This document shows positions 4,810 to 11,772 of a stretch of 37,418 bases of DNA, in pieces. The notes under the pieces are model-generated. The model was given only the letters and a program-made list of their open reading frames with translations, was not told where the DNA came from and searched no databases. Both the position numbers and the translations under genes were made by a program. The stretch is from Terriglobia bacterium (GTDB taxonomy: Bacteria > Acidobacteriota > Terriglobia > Terriglobales > Acidobacteriaceae), in the NCBI GenBank assembly GCA_021325035.1, contig JAJPHW010000018.1, forward strand, positions 1 through 37,418. The letters are read 5' to 3'. Every line of letters begins with the position of its first letter. Position 1 is the stretch's first letter.

Positions 4810-4885
4810 TGGTGAGCGCGGATGGACTCGAACCATCGACCCATGCCTTAAAAGGGCATTGCTCTGCCAACTGAGCTACGCGCCC
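4810..4885 (-). tRNA. tRNA-Lys (anticodon TTT), CCA encoded
   Basis: Reverse complement gives a full cloverleaf. The acceptor GGGCGCG pairs with CGCGCTC (one G-T). The D-arm is GCTC...GAGC. The anticodon stem ATGCC/GGCAT has loop CTTTTAA, so the anticodon is TTT (lysine AAA/AAG codons). The T-arm contains GGTTCGAGTCC. Discriminator A is followed by a genomically encoded CCA (complement of tgg at 4810-4812). Total length is 76 nt including CCA. Confidence 0.97.
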
Positions 4886-5929: not shown

Positions 5930-6439
5930 TTATGGGGAAATGGGACCGGGCAGTCCCAGTCTCGCGCGGATTTCAGCTACGATTGCATTGGGAGTTTGGG
6001 CGATATCTATGACGAGTGCATCTTCGTGCTTTATTGGCTCTTCCAGCGTGGCCAGTTGGCTGGCGAGCATAGATTCGCTCATGTAGTGGCCCGTGCGAGA
6101 ACGCAATCTCTCATGGAGCAAGTTTGCAGTTCCGCGCAGATAGACGATCTTCACTTCTGGGCCGACCCGCAGCTCGTCGCGATAGGCCTTCTTCAGCGCC
6201 GAACAAGCTAAGAGCGCATTCTTCCCTCTCGTAATCCAGCCAGTGATAAGACTGCTCAGAGCTTCGAGCCAAGGCGCGCGGTCGGCATCGGTAAGCGGAA
6301 TGCCGCTTCGCATTTTCTCGACGTTGGCCACGGAATGGTAATCGTCCGCATCGGCGAATTGCCAACCGAGCTGTGAGGCGAGGAGATGGCCGATTGTGGT
6401 TTTGCCGGAGCCCGAAACTCCCATGAGGAGAATGACCAC
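5930..6439 (-). CDS. gntK: Gluconokinase
   Basis: Phosphorylates D-gluconate to 6-phosphogluconate with ATP, feeding the pentose phosphate or Entner-Doudoroff route; cytosolic. The 169-residue size matches the short GntK family. The Walker A loop GVSGSGKT occupies residues 7-14. Family-typical segments follow: FADADDYHSVANVEKM, GIPLTDADRAPWL, CSALKKAYRDELR, VYLRG and the GHYM(S)ESMLASQ lid region. The start is GTG at 6439, four bases after the stop of the small membrane-protein gene, so the two are probably co-transcribed and translationally coupled. No gluconate transporter or dehydrogenase is visible nearby. Confidence 0.95.
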   Translation of the reverse strand: MVILLMGVSGSGKTTIGHLLASQLGWQFADADDYHSVANVEKMRSGIPLTDADRAPWLEALSSLITGWITRGKNALLACSALKKAYRDELRVGPEVKIVYLRGTANLLHERLRSRTGHYMSESMLASQLATLEEPIKHEDALVIDIAQTPNAIVAEIRARLGLPGPISP

Positions 6440-6443
6440 GGAT

Positions 6444-6677
6444 TTATTGTGACGCGGTCGGCGTTTTCTGAGGAATATCGTTGCAGAGGGCGCACGCCTC
6501 GCCTCTGCGTGAGCGGTAGATACGACCGACCGTGAAAATCGCGGCGGAGACCGCGGCCCAGAAGAGCGTTCCCAAAAGCGAGAATGCGTGATGCCTTAAG
6601 AACTGCGCGATGGCAATAACGAGAAACGCGCCAGCAAAGACTATGAAGAATCGGCGAATCCAGAATGATGTGCCCAT
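6444..6677 (-). CDS. Small two-helix membrane protein
   Basis: A 77-residue hypothetical protein with two hydrophobic helices (about residues 7-27, FFIVFAGAFLVIAIAQFL, and 31-50, FSLLGTLFWAAVSAAIFTVG) followed by a basic RIYRSRRGE and a polar tail. ATG 6677 has a GGGAG site nine bases upstream. Its stop lies four bases before the gntK start on the same strand, which supports it as a real gene in a two-gene operon. The function is not recognised. The C-terminal CALC could bind a metal, but this is speculative. Confidence 0.7.
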   Translation of the reverse strand: MGTSFWIRRFFIVFAGAFLVIAIAQFLRHHAFSLLGTLFWAAVSAAIFTVGRIYRSRRGEACALCNDIPQKTPTASQ

Positions 6678-6849
6678 TTAAATGCGCTCCCGACAAGAAT
6701 AAAGTTAATAGAAGGCGTACCAGCACCCCAAAACGGGTCTGGAACTTAACTAGACACACATGCTAGGATTATCGGCGAAAAAGAGCTAAGAACCCGGATC
6801 GTGGTCTTGGACACCGCAGTCCGTCGGACGGTAATTAGCCCTTCGCTTC

Positions 6850-6891
6850 GACCCGAGATAATCACTTTTGGACGGTGTTTATCCTCGGGTC
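6850..6891. repeat. Inverted repeat just downstream of the Shedu gene
   Basis: gacccgagataa (6850-6861) and ttatcctcgggtc (6879-6891) form an inverted repeat of 12 pairs with a single bulged base and a 17-base loop. No T run follows on either strand, so it is a poor intrinsic terminator. It sits about 50 bp past the stop of the 6940-8103 gene, in a 262-bp gap that otherwise shows no gene. Confidence 0.6.
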
Positions 6892-6939
6892 AGAGCGGCA
6901 TAGTAGCACAAAACACAAGGTACTCGCCGCGATGTTTTT

Positions 6940-8103
6940 CTAAGGCTGGTCCCCGACAATAAACTTCGCTCTCTGATAAAGTTCGTCGAAAGTAATGATG
7001 TCTATGCCATGAATTGATTTTCTGAATCTCTGGAATGTTTCTCGCTTCGATCTGAACTCCCTGGCATCACTTCCAGTCTTAACCTCATTGAGAGAGCCGA
7101 TGACTATAATGCCCTTAGGCTGCACTGTGTAGACGTCGCTACCTTCTAGCCTATCTCTGTTATCGCGTTGTTCCGCCCCGTGTTTATCCCACTCATCAAT
7201 GCATGCCTGGATTTGCGACAATGCATCACTAAGATCCTTGGAAAGGCTCCATGCCCCACTCCTGATTTCGCAGCTGCCCTGAAGTAATGGCGTTCTTGGA
7301 GTCTTGATCTCTACGAGCACCGTGAAATTTACTGCGCCTACGCTTGAGACGAGATAATCTCCCTTCTTACCTCCGCGGCCATCAACTCGCGTGCCGCCGT
7401 AATGGGGCTGGCTTTGCAAATGCCTTAGGACTTGATAGTTCAATCCATAGCCAAATATCCATTTATTCTCATCAAAAAAATCTTGCCACTTGGGCTCGAT
7501 CCAATTTTCTTGTAGAGCATCTTCGAATTCAGCTAGCTTTTCTTTCCTCTTAAGAATCTGATTGATATCCTCGTGAGACAGAGAGACATCAGGGGTGGAC
7601 AGCAACTGTTTGACGATGGAGCTTACGCTTGAGGCGCCCCGTTGGCGAAGTTCTAAGACGATCTCGCTTTCTTGTTGAGAGACTAACGAGAACTTTTCTT
7701 TGGGGACGTCTATCTCCGAAAGACTTTGCAGATATGAAATCAGTTCCCAAAATTGCTTGTGGCAGTTCTTGAGATCAAAACTAGCCTTCGTGCGGTAAAC
7801 ATCAATCTCGTCGACTGGCTCGGCAGAAATTTTCCCTTGTTTCTTGTCGCGAACAGAGAAGGCCAACCGCGGTTCACAATGACCGTCTTTTTCGATTAAC
7901 GAAACCTGACAGACATATGACACACGCTGCCCGTCAGCTAAGACAAACCTCTTAACAGGTGACTGTTTTGCGTTGTTATAGATATAACGTAGCTTAGGCC
8001 CCAATGCCGGGTTAAACACGAGGTCATCAAAGTTATCCTGGCCGATCACGAAGTCAGTCTTGATGTCCGGCTCGCTCGGGGTTGTAGATCGGATAGCACT
8101 CAT
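6940..8103 (-). CDS. sduA: Shedu-type anti-phage nuclease (DUF4263 family)
   Basis: A 387-residue protein whose C-terminal half matches the Shedu SduA (DUF4263) domain, a PD-(D/E)XK-fold nuclease that forms one-gene anti-phage defence systems. Visible landmarks: W-I-F-G at 215-218 (family W.FG before the core), Asp249 in KKGDYL, the core VEIKTP with Glu265 and Lys267, Gln298/Gln300 in ALSQIQA, the strand GIIVIGS (331-337) and the C-terminal IIT-FDEL. The first 190 residues form a separate region with predicted strands (VSYVCQVSLIE) and helices, likely sensory or regulatory. Base composition is more AT-rich than its neighbours (49 GC in the 120 bases of 6961-7080), consistent with horizontal acquisition. 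A GAGGT site directly precedes ATG 8103. All nuclease residues appear intact. Confidence 0.85.
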   Translation of the reverse strand: MSAIRSTTPSEPDIKTDFVIGQDNFDDLVFNPALGPKLRYIYNNAKQSPVKRFVLADGQRVSYVCQVSLIEKDGHCEPRLAFSVRDKKQGKISAEPVDEIDVYRTKASFDLKNCHKQFWELISYLQSLSEIDVPKEKFSLVSQQESEIVLELRQRGASSVSSIVKQLLSTPDVSLSHEDINQILKRKEKLAEFEDALQENWIEPKWQDFFDENKWIFGYGLNYQVLRHLQSQPHYGGTRVDGRGGKKGDYLVSSVGAVNFTVLVEIKTPRTPLLQGSCEIRSGAWSLSKDLSDALSQIQACIDEWDKHGAEQRDNRDRLEGSDVYTVQPKGIIVIGSLNEVKTGSDAREFRSKRETFQRFRKSIHGIDIITFDELYQRAKFIVGDQP

Positions 8104-8178
8104 CTACCTCAAATCCTACTCCGCGCGAAAAACATCCGCAAAATCCGATGAGGCGACTCTTCCTAGATACTAGCCTCA

Positions 8179-10542
8179 CTACTTGTAGATAAAATACTTC
8201 TCTCTCACCCGCATAAACCCATCCAGCGCGTCTTGCCAATCCTGGGCGATGCGGCGCGGGTCTTCTCCGTTCATGATTGCGTTGAAGACGCTCTGGTTCA
8301 CCAGCAGGTCGTTCATCTTGTCCAGCTTGAAATCCTGGGGATAGAGTTTGTGCAGCGCGGACGCCAGCTCAATGCCGAGTTCGGGCGCATCGAAAGTGTT
8401 GCGCGCGGTGACGATGATGTTCACGCCCTGGCATTTCTGATTGGCGTAGGTGCTGGCCGTCGGGAAAAACGTGACCGGCACAAAACGCACACCGCTGAGT
8501 TCGCGGGCGTTGAGATATTGCGCGAGGTCGCGGGCGTTGATCCAGGGCGCGCCAAGAAGCTCGAAAGGCGCGTCGGTGCCGCGGCCGACGGAGACATTCG
8601 TTCCCTCAACCAAAGCCACACCGGGATAGAGCGTTGCCTGCATTAGGTCGCGCAGATTCGGCGATGGGTTCACCCACGCGAGGCTGGTCGAGTCATACCA
8701 GTCGCCGCGCATCCATCCTTGCATAGGAATAACAGTGAGCCGCGCATTGATGCCGCGTTCGGCGTTGAACATTTTCGCCAGCTCACCCAGCGTCATGCCG
8801 TGGCGAATGGGAATCGGCGAATAGTTGGTGAAGCTTTCGTGTCCCGCGTCGGAAATCGAGCCTTGCACGAACGATCCGGTGATGGGATTGGGACGGTCGA
8901 GCACGATGATGGCGATTCCGGCTTTGGCGGCGGCTTCGAGAAAATATCCCAGCGTGGTTTCGTAGGTGTAGAAGCGTACGCCCGCGTCTTGAATGTCCAC
9001 GACGACGGCGTCGAGAGATTTGAGTGTTTCGACGGACGGGCGGCGCGCCGCGTCAGTCGCGCCATAGACGCTGTAAACGGGGAAGCCGGTAGCCGCGTCT
9101 TTGGAGTTGTTGATGTCGGTGGTGTCGAGCGATCCGGTGACGCCATGCTCGGGACTGAAAATCGCGTCGAGAGAAATGCCGGGTGCGTGGGCGAGCACAT
9201 CAATGGTGCGGCGGCCCTGTGAGTCCACTCCAGTTTGATTGGTGAGCAGGCCGATTTTCTTATAGGGCCGCAGCGGCTCGAAGTTTTGCTGCTCCAGCAC
9301 GTCAATCCCCGTCAGGACGGTGCCGTTTCTTGTGGCGACACGGCGGGAAGCAGTTTGAGCTTCGTTGTATCCGGTAATGCTTTGCCACCGCAGCTTTTCT
9401 TGCTCATTGGGAGTGAGCTGTAAGTTCACGGCGACGGCGGTCGCGATCTTAGAGCGAAGCGCAATCGCACTTCCCTGCCCGCGCGGATGGACGGCATTGG
9501 TCAGGATGATGATGTAAGTCTGCGTGGTTGGATCAATCCACAGCGAAGTGCCAGTGAATCCAGTGTGCCCGAAGGAGCCGACGGGCAGAAACTCGCCACG
9601 ATTACTGGAGAAGGGCGAATCAATGTCCCAGCCGAAGCCGCGCAGTTCTTCGGCGGTGGGCGGCTGCTGCGGCGTGGTCATCTTTTCTATGGAACTCGAA
9701 GTCAACACAGAACTGCCCGTGAGTAGTGCCTGGGCAAGTTTCGCCAGATCGTCAGCAGTGGAAAAGACTCCGGCGTGTCCGGCGACTCCGCCCATGCGCC
9801 GTGCCGTGGGATCGTGCACTACGCCGCGAAGCATTTTTTCGTGCTCGTCATATTGCGTCGGAGCGATGCGCGGCAGCCACGACGTAGGCGGAAGATAGCG
9901 GGTCGTGCTCATTCCCAGCGGCGTGAAGATATTTTTCTGACAGTATTCTTCGAGTGGCAAGCCGGAGACGCGCTCGACCAACGCACCCAGCGTAATAAAG
10001 TTGATATCGCTATAGCGAAAGCGTGCGCCGGGTGGATCAACCGGCTTCTGCTCAAAGGCTATGCGATAGGCAGTCTCTCGGCCTTCCCAGGGCTGTGAAC
10101 GATCAAGGTCTTCGGTGAGCCCAGAATAGTGCGTGAGCAATTCCCGCACCGTGACGTCTTCTTTTCCGTTCTGCGCGAACTCCGGCAGATATTTGACGAC
10201 CGGATCGTTCACCCGAACCCTCCCCTGCTCAACTAATTGCATGACGGCTGTTGTCGTCGCTACGACCTTGGTCAAAGATGCAATGTCGAAGATCGTGTCC
10301 AGCGTCATCGCCTCGCGGCGCGGATCGAGAGCACGATCACCAAACGCTTTGCGATAGACGATTTGTCCGTTATGGCCAACCAAGACGACCGCGCCGGGGA
10401 CCTGATTGGTGTGGATGGCATCAAGAACGATGGCATCGAGAGGTTTGAGAGGATCCGCGCTCGATGAAGTTTGCGCGCCGAGAGCAATCGGTACAAGTAT
10501 GTAGCCGATGAGCCCGATTAGCGACTTGAGTTTACTATTCAA
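8179..10542 (-). CDS. Serine hydrolase (AmiE-like) fused to NamZ-type exo-N-acetylmuramidase
   Basis: A 787-residue two-domain enzyme with an N-terminal signal peptide (LIGLIGYILVPIALGAQ). Residues about 30-375 are a class C beta-lactamase-fold serine hydrolase: SLTK at 89-92 (Ser89 nucleophile, Lys92), YSD at 177-179 and HTG at 326-328. Residues about 405-787 are a DUF1343/NamZ domain: GLLTNQTGVD, FSPEHG (463-467, Glu465 catalytic), DIQDAGVRFYTYE (516-528) and LDRPNP. In Bacillus subtilis NamZ (YbbC) and the beta-lactamase-fold amidase AmiE (YbbE) are separate neighbouring genes that act with NagZ on peptidoglycan fragments. Here the two are on one chain, probably acting in the periplasm. 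A beta-lactamase or esterase role for the first domain cannot be excluded. Confidence 0.9.
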   Translation of the reverse strand: MNSKLKSLIGLIGYILVPIALGAQTSSSADPLKPLDAIVLDAIHTNQVPGAVVLVGHNGQIVYRKAFGDRALDPRREAMTLDTIFDIASLTKVVATTTAVMQLVEQGRVRVNDPVVKYLPEFAQNGKEDVTVRELLTHYSGLTEDLDRSQPWEGRETAYRIAFEQKPVDPPGARFRYSDINFITLGALVERVSGLPLEEYCQKNIFTPLGMSTTRYLPPTSWLPRIAPTQYDEHEKMLRGVVHDPTARRMGGVAGHAGVFSTADDLAKLAQALLTGSSVLTSSSIEKMTTPQQPPTAEELRGFGWDIDSPFSSNRGEFLPVGSFGHTGFTGTSLWIDPTTQTYIIILTNAVHPRGQGSAIALRSKIATAVAVNLQLTPNEQEKLRWQSITGYNEAQTASRRVATRNGTVLTGIDVLEQQNFEPLRPYKKIGLLTNQTGVDSQGRRTIDVLAHAPGISLDAIFSPEHGVTGSLDTTDINNSKDAATGFPVYSVYGATDAARRPSVETLKSLDAVVVDIQDAGVRFYTYETTLGYFLEAAAKAGIAIIVLDRPNPITGSFVQGSISDAGHESFTNYSPIPIRHGMTLGELAKMFNAERGINARLTVIPMQGWMRGDWYDSTSLAWVNPSPNLRDLMQATLYPGVALVEGTNVSVGRGTDAPFELLGAPWINARDLAQYLNARELSGVRFVPVTFFPTASTYANQKCQGVNIIVTARNTFDAPELGIELASALHKLYPQDFKLDKMNDLLVNQSVFNAIMNGEDPRRIAQDWQDALDGFMRVREKYFIYK

Positions 10543-10668
10543 ACTAGCGTGAGTTTATCAGCGCAGGAAAGAGTTGCCGAGTAACGATTGTGGCGCGACT
10601 TCCGTCGAACCATTTCACACATTTACGGGCATGGAACCCTTTGTTATAAACCAGATGAGCCACTATTC

Positions 10669-11772
10669 GTGACCATTCCACCCACAGCGCTATCACATGC
10701 TTATGATGGCCAGGATGAAGTATTCTCTGAATCGTTTTCTATTCTGAAATCTGGCATTGAAAAGCAGGCCTTCCCTGCCGCATCGGTTGCGATTACGTCA
10801 AAAGGCAGACTCGTCGGGTTGAAGTCTTTTGGGCGATTTACTTACGAAGCGAGTTCTCCTGAAGCCACAACGGCAACAATCTTCGATTTAGCTTCGGTCA
10901 CAAAAGTCGTCGCCACAACCACGATGTCAATGATTTTGTATGAACGCGGGTTGCTGGATTTAGACTTGCCAGTAATTTCGGTAATTCCCGAGTTTGCCAG
11001 CGGTGATCCGCGCCGCAGACTGGTTACGTTGCGCATGTTGCTTGCGCATTCGTCAGGATTGCCAGCGCATGAAAAATTTTATCTATCGGCACACGATAAA
11101 GAAGCGTTATTGGCTGCCGCTTTCTCTACTGCCCTGTCGGCGGAGCCTGGCACACAAGTGGTTTATAGCGATATCGGATTCATCATCTTAGGAGTTGCGT
11201 TAGAGCGAATTGCCGGTGAGACTTTGGATCGCTTCTGTCAGCATGAAATTTTTGGGCCGTTGGGCATGACGCACACCGGATTCAATCCTCCAAGCGCCAT
11301 TAGAAATTCGATTCCTCCAACCGTGGACGACCGAATATTTCGCCACCGTGTTATTCAAGGCGAAGTCAACGATGAAAATGCGTACGTGATGGGCGGTGTG
11401 GCTGCACAAGCCGGCCTGTTTTCCACGGCCGGGGATGTTGCAATGTTCGCGCAGTGCATGTTATGTGGGGGAATACCGATCCTTCGTTCTGAAGCCGTCG
11501 CTTTGTTTACGCGGCGCGAGCTATCACCGGACGGAACATCGCGCGCTCTGGGTTGGGACACGCCATCGCAGCCATCCCAATCGGGCACATATTTTTCAGC
11601 CCATTCATTTGGACATTGGGGCTACACCGGCACGTCGCTATGGATTGACCCTGTACGCCAGATTTCCGTTACTCTACTCACGAACCGAACATGGCCAGAT
11701 AACAGCCACCAAGGGATAAAAGACGTTCGCCCTAAATTTCACGATACCGTGATGAAAGCGCTATTGGCTTAG
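10669..11772 (+). CDS. Beta-lactamase-fold serine hydrolase
   Basis: A PF00144-type serine hydrolase of about 367 residues, clearly paralogous to the first domain of the divergent neighbour: FDLASVTKVVATTT here against FDIASLTKVVATTT there, and FGHWGYTGTSLWIDP against FGHTGFTGTSLWIDP. Catalytic motifs are SVTK (Ser and Lys), YSD and HWG. The start is uncertain. An upstream TTG at 10588 adds 27 residues with no family resemblance and no nearby ribosome-binding site, so GTG 10669 is preferred. No signal peptide is evident from either start, suggesting a cytosolic enzyme, unlike its exported paralogue. Likely substrates are muropeptides or small esters or amides; not determined by sequence. Confidence 0.85.
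   Translation: MTIPPTALSHAYDGQDEVFSESFSILKSGIEKQAFPAASVAITSKGRLVGLKSFGRFTYEASSPEATTATIFDLASVTKVVATTTMSMILYERGLLDLDLPVISVIPEFASGDPRRRLVTLRMLLAHSSGLPAHEKFYLSAHDKEALLAAAFSTALSAEPGTQVVYSDIGFIILGVALERIAGETLDRFCQHEIFGPLGMTHTGFNPPSAIRNSIPPTVDDRIFRHRVIQGEVNDENAYVMGGVAAQAGLFSTAGDVAMFAQCMLCGGIPILRSEAVALFTRRELSPDGTSRALGWDTPSQPSQSGTYFSAHSFGHWGYTGTSLWIDPVRQISVTLLTNRTWPDNSHQGIKDVRPKFHDTVMKALLA

Follow-up and report, generated by a model that had tools for sequence, protein, structure and literature searches.

A stand-alone Shedu nuclease gene of low GC content in a Terriglobia genome, with the closest relatives found in Patescibacteria

Results

The Shedu gene and its surroundings

Shedu is an established defence family. 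The window, which is the whole 37,418-nucleotide stretch analysed here (contig JAJPHW010000018.1 of a Terriglobia bacterium), carries one Shedu gene. The gene, its parts and its immediate neighbours are as follows.

5930-6439, minus strand: P-loop kinase gene, gluconokinase-like (Pfam AAA_33/SKI); downstream neighbour, context only
6940-8103, minus strand: Shedu (SduA) nuclease gene, 387 aa, ATG start, TAG stop; assigned from the ORF, profile matches and PDB matches
6976-7497, minus strand: C-terminal SduA_C (DUF4263) PD-(D/E)XK nuclease domain, residues 203-376; Pfam PF14082 and fold match to 8ti8
7303-7311, minus strand: E265-I-K267, putative catalytic E-x-K, from alignment and comparison with 8ti9
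7357-7359, minus strand: D249, putative catalytic residue, from alignment
7549-8103, minus strand: N-terminal region, residues 1-185, putative regulatory or DNA-sensing part; from PDLC00391 coverage and Patescibacteria homologues
8107-8110, minus strand: Shine-Dalgarno-like GAGG just 5' of the Shedu ATG, from sequence
8179-10542, minus strand: beta-lactamase-like and NamZ fusion gene (Pfam); upstream co-directional neighbour, context only

The Shedu reading frame is uninterrupted; it shares its strand with the namZ fusion gene and follows it at a distance of 75 bases. Besides the P-loop kinase and fusion genes, the neighbours are a beta-lactamase-like gene, a beta-propeller gene, an AIM24 gene and a peroxidase gene. 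Plasmid DNA matches overlapping the P-loop kinase gene are annotated as gluconokinase. The NamZ (exo-muramidase) fusion gene is divergently paired with the stand-alone beta-lactamase-like gene (10588-11772), and this pair was seen in nine of ten relatives read. A tRNA-Lys gene lies at 4810-4885, 2 kb from the Shedu gene; it was the only Rfam family at gathering score between 4600 and 8400.

The first-pass annotation described a single gene without mobility genes, and our scans agree. Pfam named no mobility gene among the window proteins scanned, which represent part of the window ORFs. In a PADLOC scan of ten window neighbours, no further defence gene was convincing; the sole match was weak (VakA, 2e-5, 40 residues of the P-loop kinase).

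No promoter-like site was found upstream of the Shedu gene; the one match in the region, where 1.8 would be expected, falls within the gene. A perfect 10-base inverted repeat (6931-6940 and 8127-8136) closely flanks the gene and is probably a chance occurrence. We rejected it as a pair of mobile-element ends, since such a repeat is at the estimated chance level in 2.7 kb. The 500 bases 3' of the Shedu gene (6440-6939) have no assigned gene and hold a 14-base inverted repeat (6844-6857 and 6884-6897) that is 86% complementary and has no Rfam match.

A match to the namZ fusion gene is present in 51 of 61 genomes of relatives, own genome included. Around this conserved gene, tblastn at 1e-10 found no Shedu in ten relatives. 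These ten differ in the genes that follow namZ, and in the relatives compared the P-loop kinase gene is either distant from namZ or on another contig. Because the flanking genes are separated and the genes after namZ vary, no empty-site junction could be placed. No insertion ends were found, and no clean empty site was seen around namZ in the ten relatives.

The protein is a Shedu nuclease by profile, motif and predicted fold

The Pfam family PF14082 (SduA_C, DUF4263) matched the protein at 4.6e-30, and the score of 105.3 bits exceeds the curated cut-off of 27. Sixteen PADLOC SduA models also matched. The best, PDLC00391, did so at 4.1e-122 (406.2 bits) over residues 15-386, covering profile positions 15-402 of 402. 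Nothing in NCBIfam scored above its cut-offs. All PDB sequence matches up to E 1 were Bacillus cereus SduA entries, the solved 8ti8 among them, and a nine-row profile added Escherichia coli SduA. The Shedu/DUF4263 identity proposed from the letters is thus upheld by the HMM search suggested at the time. Judged from its sequence, the protein is a nuclease and the gene an intact Shedu member of a known defence family.

The C-terminal motifs read as intact in the first-pass annotation are all present (W215-IFG, G248-D249-Y, V-E265-I-K267 and S-Q297-I-Q). Residues D249, K267 and Q297 are invariant across nine aligned homologues; E265 is replaced by D in one, from Lewinella (L012). D249, E265 and K267 form the expected D...E-x-K, and on this alignment the putative PD-(D/E)XK residues are intact. 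The position equivalent to E265 in B. cereus SduA is E in 8ti8 and A in 8ti9, and the latter looks like the depositors' catalytic mutant.

The predicted nuclease domain aligned with 8ti8 at Z 16.6 (rmsd 3.6, 182 residues) and with E. coli SduA 8ps5 at Z 12.9. The next fold matches were far lower and are nucleases too (N.BspD6I, Z 7.1; FokI, Z 5.9). The mean pLDDT of the whole-protein model was low (55), with the nuclease part better.

The N-terminal region is shared within a subfamily

Like other Shedu proteins, the window protein has a variable region before the nuclease. It is about 185 residues long, common to the subfamily, and 44-49% identical to the equivalent part of Patescibacteria Shedu proteins. 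The first-pass annotation called a 190-residue N-terminal region unrecognised. This holds for Pfam, where no match rose above the cut-off, but not for PADLOC, where PDLC00391 spans the region. Nor does it hold for homologues, since Patescibacteria have relatives of the region and Streptomyces plasmids have more distant ones.

An N-terminal profile gave no sequence match to PDB chains up to E 5, and the region was not detected in 8ti8 by sequence. The structure prediction proposed earlier was of limited use. Modelled alone with AlphaFold, the region reached pLDDT 58 and showed a beta sheet followed by helices, which is too weak for fold assignment. With this low-confidence model, Foldseek had no hit at 0.001, and VIA-align gave a best Z of 5.5, to unrelated proteins (DCAF15). 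The lack of a structural match does not speak for a new fold. We also tried N-terminal homology to the Shedu proteins of two acidobacterial relatives (G032 and G286), Aquimarina and Mesorhizobium; it was rejected, at an hhalign probability of 10.7% over 41 columns only.

Comparison with known Shedu systems

B. cereus SduA (8ti8, 8ti9, 8tia) is similar in length (382 aa) and has the same predicted nuclease fold and, by sequence, the same C-terminal nuclease (1.5e-16, residues 183-383); there is no sequence similarity before about residue 135 of the profile from our alignment A1. E. coli SduA (8ps4, 8ps5) matched by profile in the nuclease domain (1.5e-8, positions 264-383), whereas the window N-terminal region has no sequence match to it. 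The Vibrio cholerae protein, VcSduA, has the DUF4263 nuclease domain in common with the window protein but an N-terminal GHKL ATPase, for which Pfam found no match here.

Full-length homologues, N-terminus included, are the Shedu proteins of Nomurabacteria and Falkowbacteria MAGs (L005-L008) and of a further genome (G517, locus L065) of the same class as that of L005. At 55-59% identity overall, these Patescibacteria proteins are the closest relatives found. Their genomes are AT-rich and, unlike the window gene, those at L007 and L065 form part of a restriction operon. The Shedu protein of Streptomyces plasmid pSITFR-21b (L022, a 690-codon gene) is 31% identical over query residues 12-386. It has an extra AbiJ_NTD3 domain in front, absent from the window protein. 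Hence, the window N-terminal region corresponds to the middle of the plasmid protein, between AbiJ_NTD3 and the nuclease.

Distribution and phylogeny

Presence is patchy, as the first-pass annotation supposed. In the host family, 9 of 398 sampled genomes had any Shedu match at 1e-6, own included. The other eight are at most 44% identical, none over the whole protein, and the present subfamily was found in the window genome only. Across the phylum, 2 of 396 genomes matched at 1e-20, again counting our own. The class of one Patescibacteria relative yielded 4 of 383 genomes at 1e-10, two of them with this subfamily. A scan of one genome per species returned nine loci, the top four being Nomurabacteria and Falkowbacteria MAGs (59-61% identity in the best segment); the search patterns favour close relatives, and further carriers may exist. 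Comparison of relatives, also proposed at the outset, thus found the gene not to be a conserved one of ordinary GC.

In a tree of 16 nuclease domains, the window protein grouped with the five Patescibacteria proteins at a support of 90/90, which is not a strongly starred value in a tree with weak deepest forks and long branches. Three further Shedu genes from acidobacteria (G032, G286 and G012) fall elsewhere in the tree. Two close relatives within the subfamily, neither of them the window gene, differ with dN 0.021 and dS 0.18-0.23, indicating purifying selection between them.

A phage or viral origin was considered and rejected: 50,697 phage records gave no match at 1e-5. No match in viral contigs was confirmed with the window protein or alignment A1, from which one short pattern was used, and a strict degenerate DNA pattern found none; all these searches have limited sensitivity. 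Our literature search found no description of this Shedu subfamily; its coverage was incomplete and absence from print is unproven.

Two relatives of the host carry other Shedu genes. In G286 (L067, 9654-10844) the gene is also alone; its GC is 0.446, whereas the remainder of the locus has 0.595, and it ends 3 bases from an ORF that by eye resembles ffh. In G032 a different Shedu gene (L066, 8742-9890) adjoins a 108-aa ORF (8288-8614) that by eye resembles the start of RecQ, in much higher-GC surroundings. Lone low-GC Shedu genes recur in the host family at different sites.

Base composition

The GC content of the Shedu gene is 47.1%, against 53.6% for the window, and is the lowest among the ORFs listed. 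It is the second lowest (z -2.9) among 148 ORFs of at least 200 aa, drawn from 246 kb comprising the window and stretches of 20 other contigs. The early observation of about 41% GC in the first two 60-base rows was accurate (41.7% over 6940-7059); as the gene is on the minus strand, these rows are its 3' end. GC3 is less unusual, with 14 of the 148 ORFs at or below the Shedu value, own included. Codon usage does not stand out in the host: among 61 ORFs of 300-480 aa, 18 deviate at least as much, own included. Thus, the description of the composition as foreign-looking, and lower in GC than the neighbours, stands for GC but not for codon usage. Because codon usage is ordinary and GC3 only mildly low, amino-acid content accounts for much of the low GC. 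Across 13 loci, Shedu GC was below the rest of its own locus in 12; the exception was L065, where it was higher than the surroundings. The composition points to a transfer of no recent date, or to a family whose amino-acid make-up leans towards AT.

Loci of relatives

Two of the five Patescibacteria loci hold Shedu within a restriction operon. At L007 the operon is of type I, in the order hsdR-hsdM-Shedu-unknown-hsdS, and hsdM overlaps the Shedu gene by 4 bases. At L065 it is of type III, with a mod-like methylase gene, a res gene and then Shedu after a 3-base gap. By blastn at 1e-5, DNA homology between the two loci is limited to the Shedu ORF (L007 4524-5667 with L065 5360-6503). No restriction genes were found at L005, L006 or L008 among the ORFs read or scanned. 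Serine recombinase genes lie about 0.7 kb (L006) and 3.6 kb (L008) upstream of Shedu; L005 has the L006 arrangement, with a broken reading. In a Rhizobium relative (L024), Shedu neighbours a gene annotated as restriction endonuclease. The Shedu ORF is therefore a single unit in several settings, and association supports a defence role.

In the window genome, the methylase family PF02384 had no match, in a search that was positive in 13 of 14 control genomes. Two PF01555 methylase matches were found, neither beside the Shedu gene; one of them (L096, C78:3552-4529) reads through one TGA.

Discussion

We consider it probable, at roughly 85%, that the window gene is a complete, horizontally acquired one-gene Shedu anti-phage nuclease that would recognise DNA, probably ends, through its N-terminal region and cut through its C-terminal domain. 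Low GC, patchy presence, the tree grouping with Patescibacteria and relatives near recombinases are among the observations in favour of this reading. Most likely, the single gene would have reached this acidobacterial lineage horizontally, not very recently.

The proposed mechanism, in which the N-terminal region would recognise invading DNA before cutting, is built by analogy. A review describes EcSduA as tetrameric, with an N-terminal clamp that holds on to DNA ends and nicks placed at a fixed distance; different clamps are suggested there to set Shedu specificity, target choice by N-terminal regions being still a hypothesis (PMC12904381). Another report states that a nuclease-residue mutant of VcSduA loses protection (PMC12137116). 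By comparison with these studied members, the window protein would form an oligomer, and sensing and protection are likewise expected of it. Its N-terminal clamp would hold the nuclease inactive until a feature of invading DNA is met, most likely a free linear DNA end or a replication intermediate. The C-terminal domain would then nick or cut DNA near the recognised point. Phage sensing by the N-terminal region, suggested in the first-pass annotation, and defence activity itself are inferred. End sensing itself may not hold for this region, because it has neither a confident predicted fold nor a PDB sequence match.

Restriction genes tend to cluster with unrelated defence genes. This weakens a rival reading of L007, with Shedu between hsdM and hsdS, of L065, with Shedu directly after res, and of the Rhizobium locus: that the protein is an accessory nuclease of restriction-modification, working on the DNA ends that type I or III enzymes leave and removing broken phage DNA. 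The window copy would then be an orphan, working alone or with a restriction system elsewhere. The end sensing reported for EcSduA (PMC12904381) fits such a role. The three Patescibacteria loci without restriction genes among the ORFs read or scanned do not, nor does the window genome, with no PF02384 match and its PF01555 matches away from Shedu. We regard an accessory role as improbable. Slightly less doubtful, though still unlikely, is a broader proposal that the subfamily moves between Acidobacteriota and Patescibacteria as one isolated ORF that lands in various types of restriction-modification operon; there an end-sensing nuclease, whose N-terminal sensor fold is not yet solved, would consume restriction-broken DNA.

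The gene stands alone between ordinary genes, has ordinary codon usage and lacks a promoter-like site upstream, as might a remnant that has decayed or lost activity, or a gene recruited to housekeeping DNA repair. Its intact ORF, full-length homology and kept catalytic residues oppose decay, as does purifying selection in the subfamily, measured on two other members only, and relatives do not conserve it as they would a housekeeping gene. Hence, we find either fate very improbable, and favour a complete anti-phage nuclease.

The window gene is a good, if fairly ordinary, representative of a known defence family whose members pass between distant bacteria; its subfamily was found in a single acidobacterial genome and in Patescibacteria with reduced genomes. 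Should the ordinary reading alone be true, it would be one more stand-alone defence gene. The natural contexts of the subfamily, namely alone, in a type I operon and in a type III operon, would make it possible to compare directly Shedu acting alone with Shedu as a follow-up to restriction.
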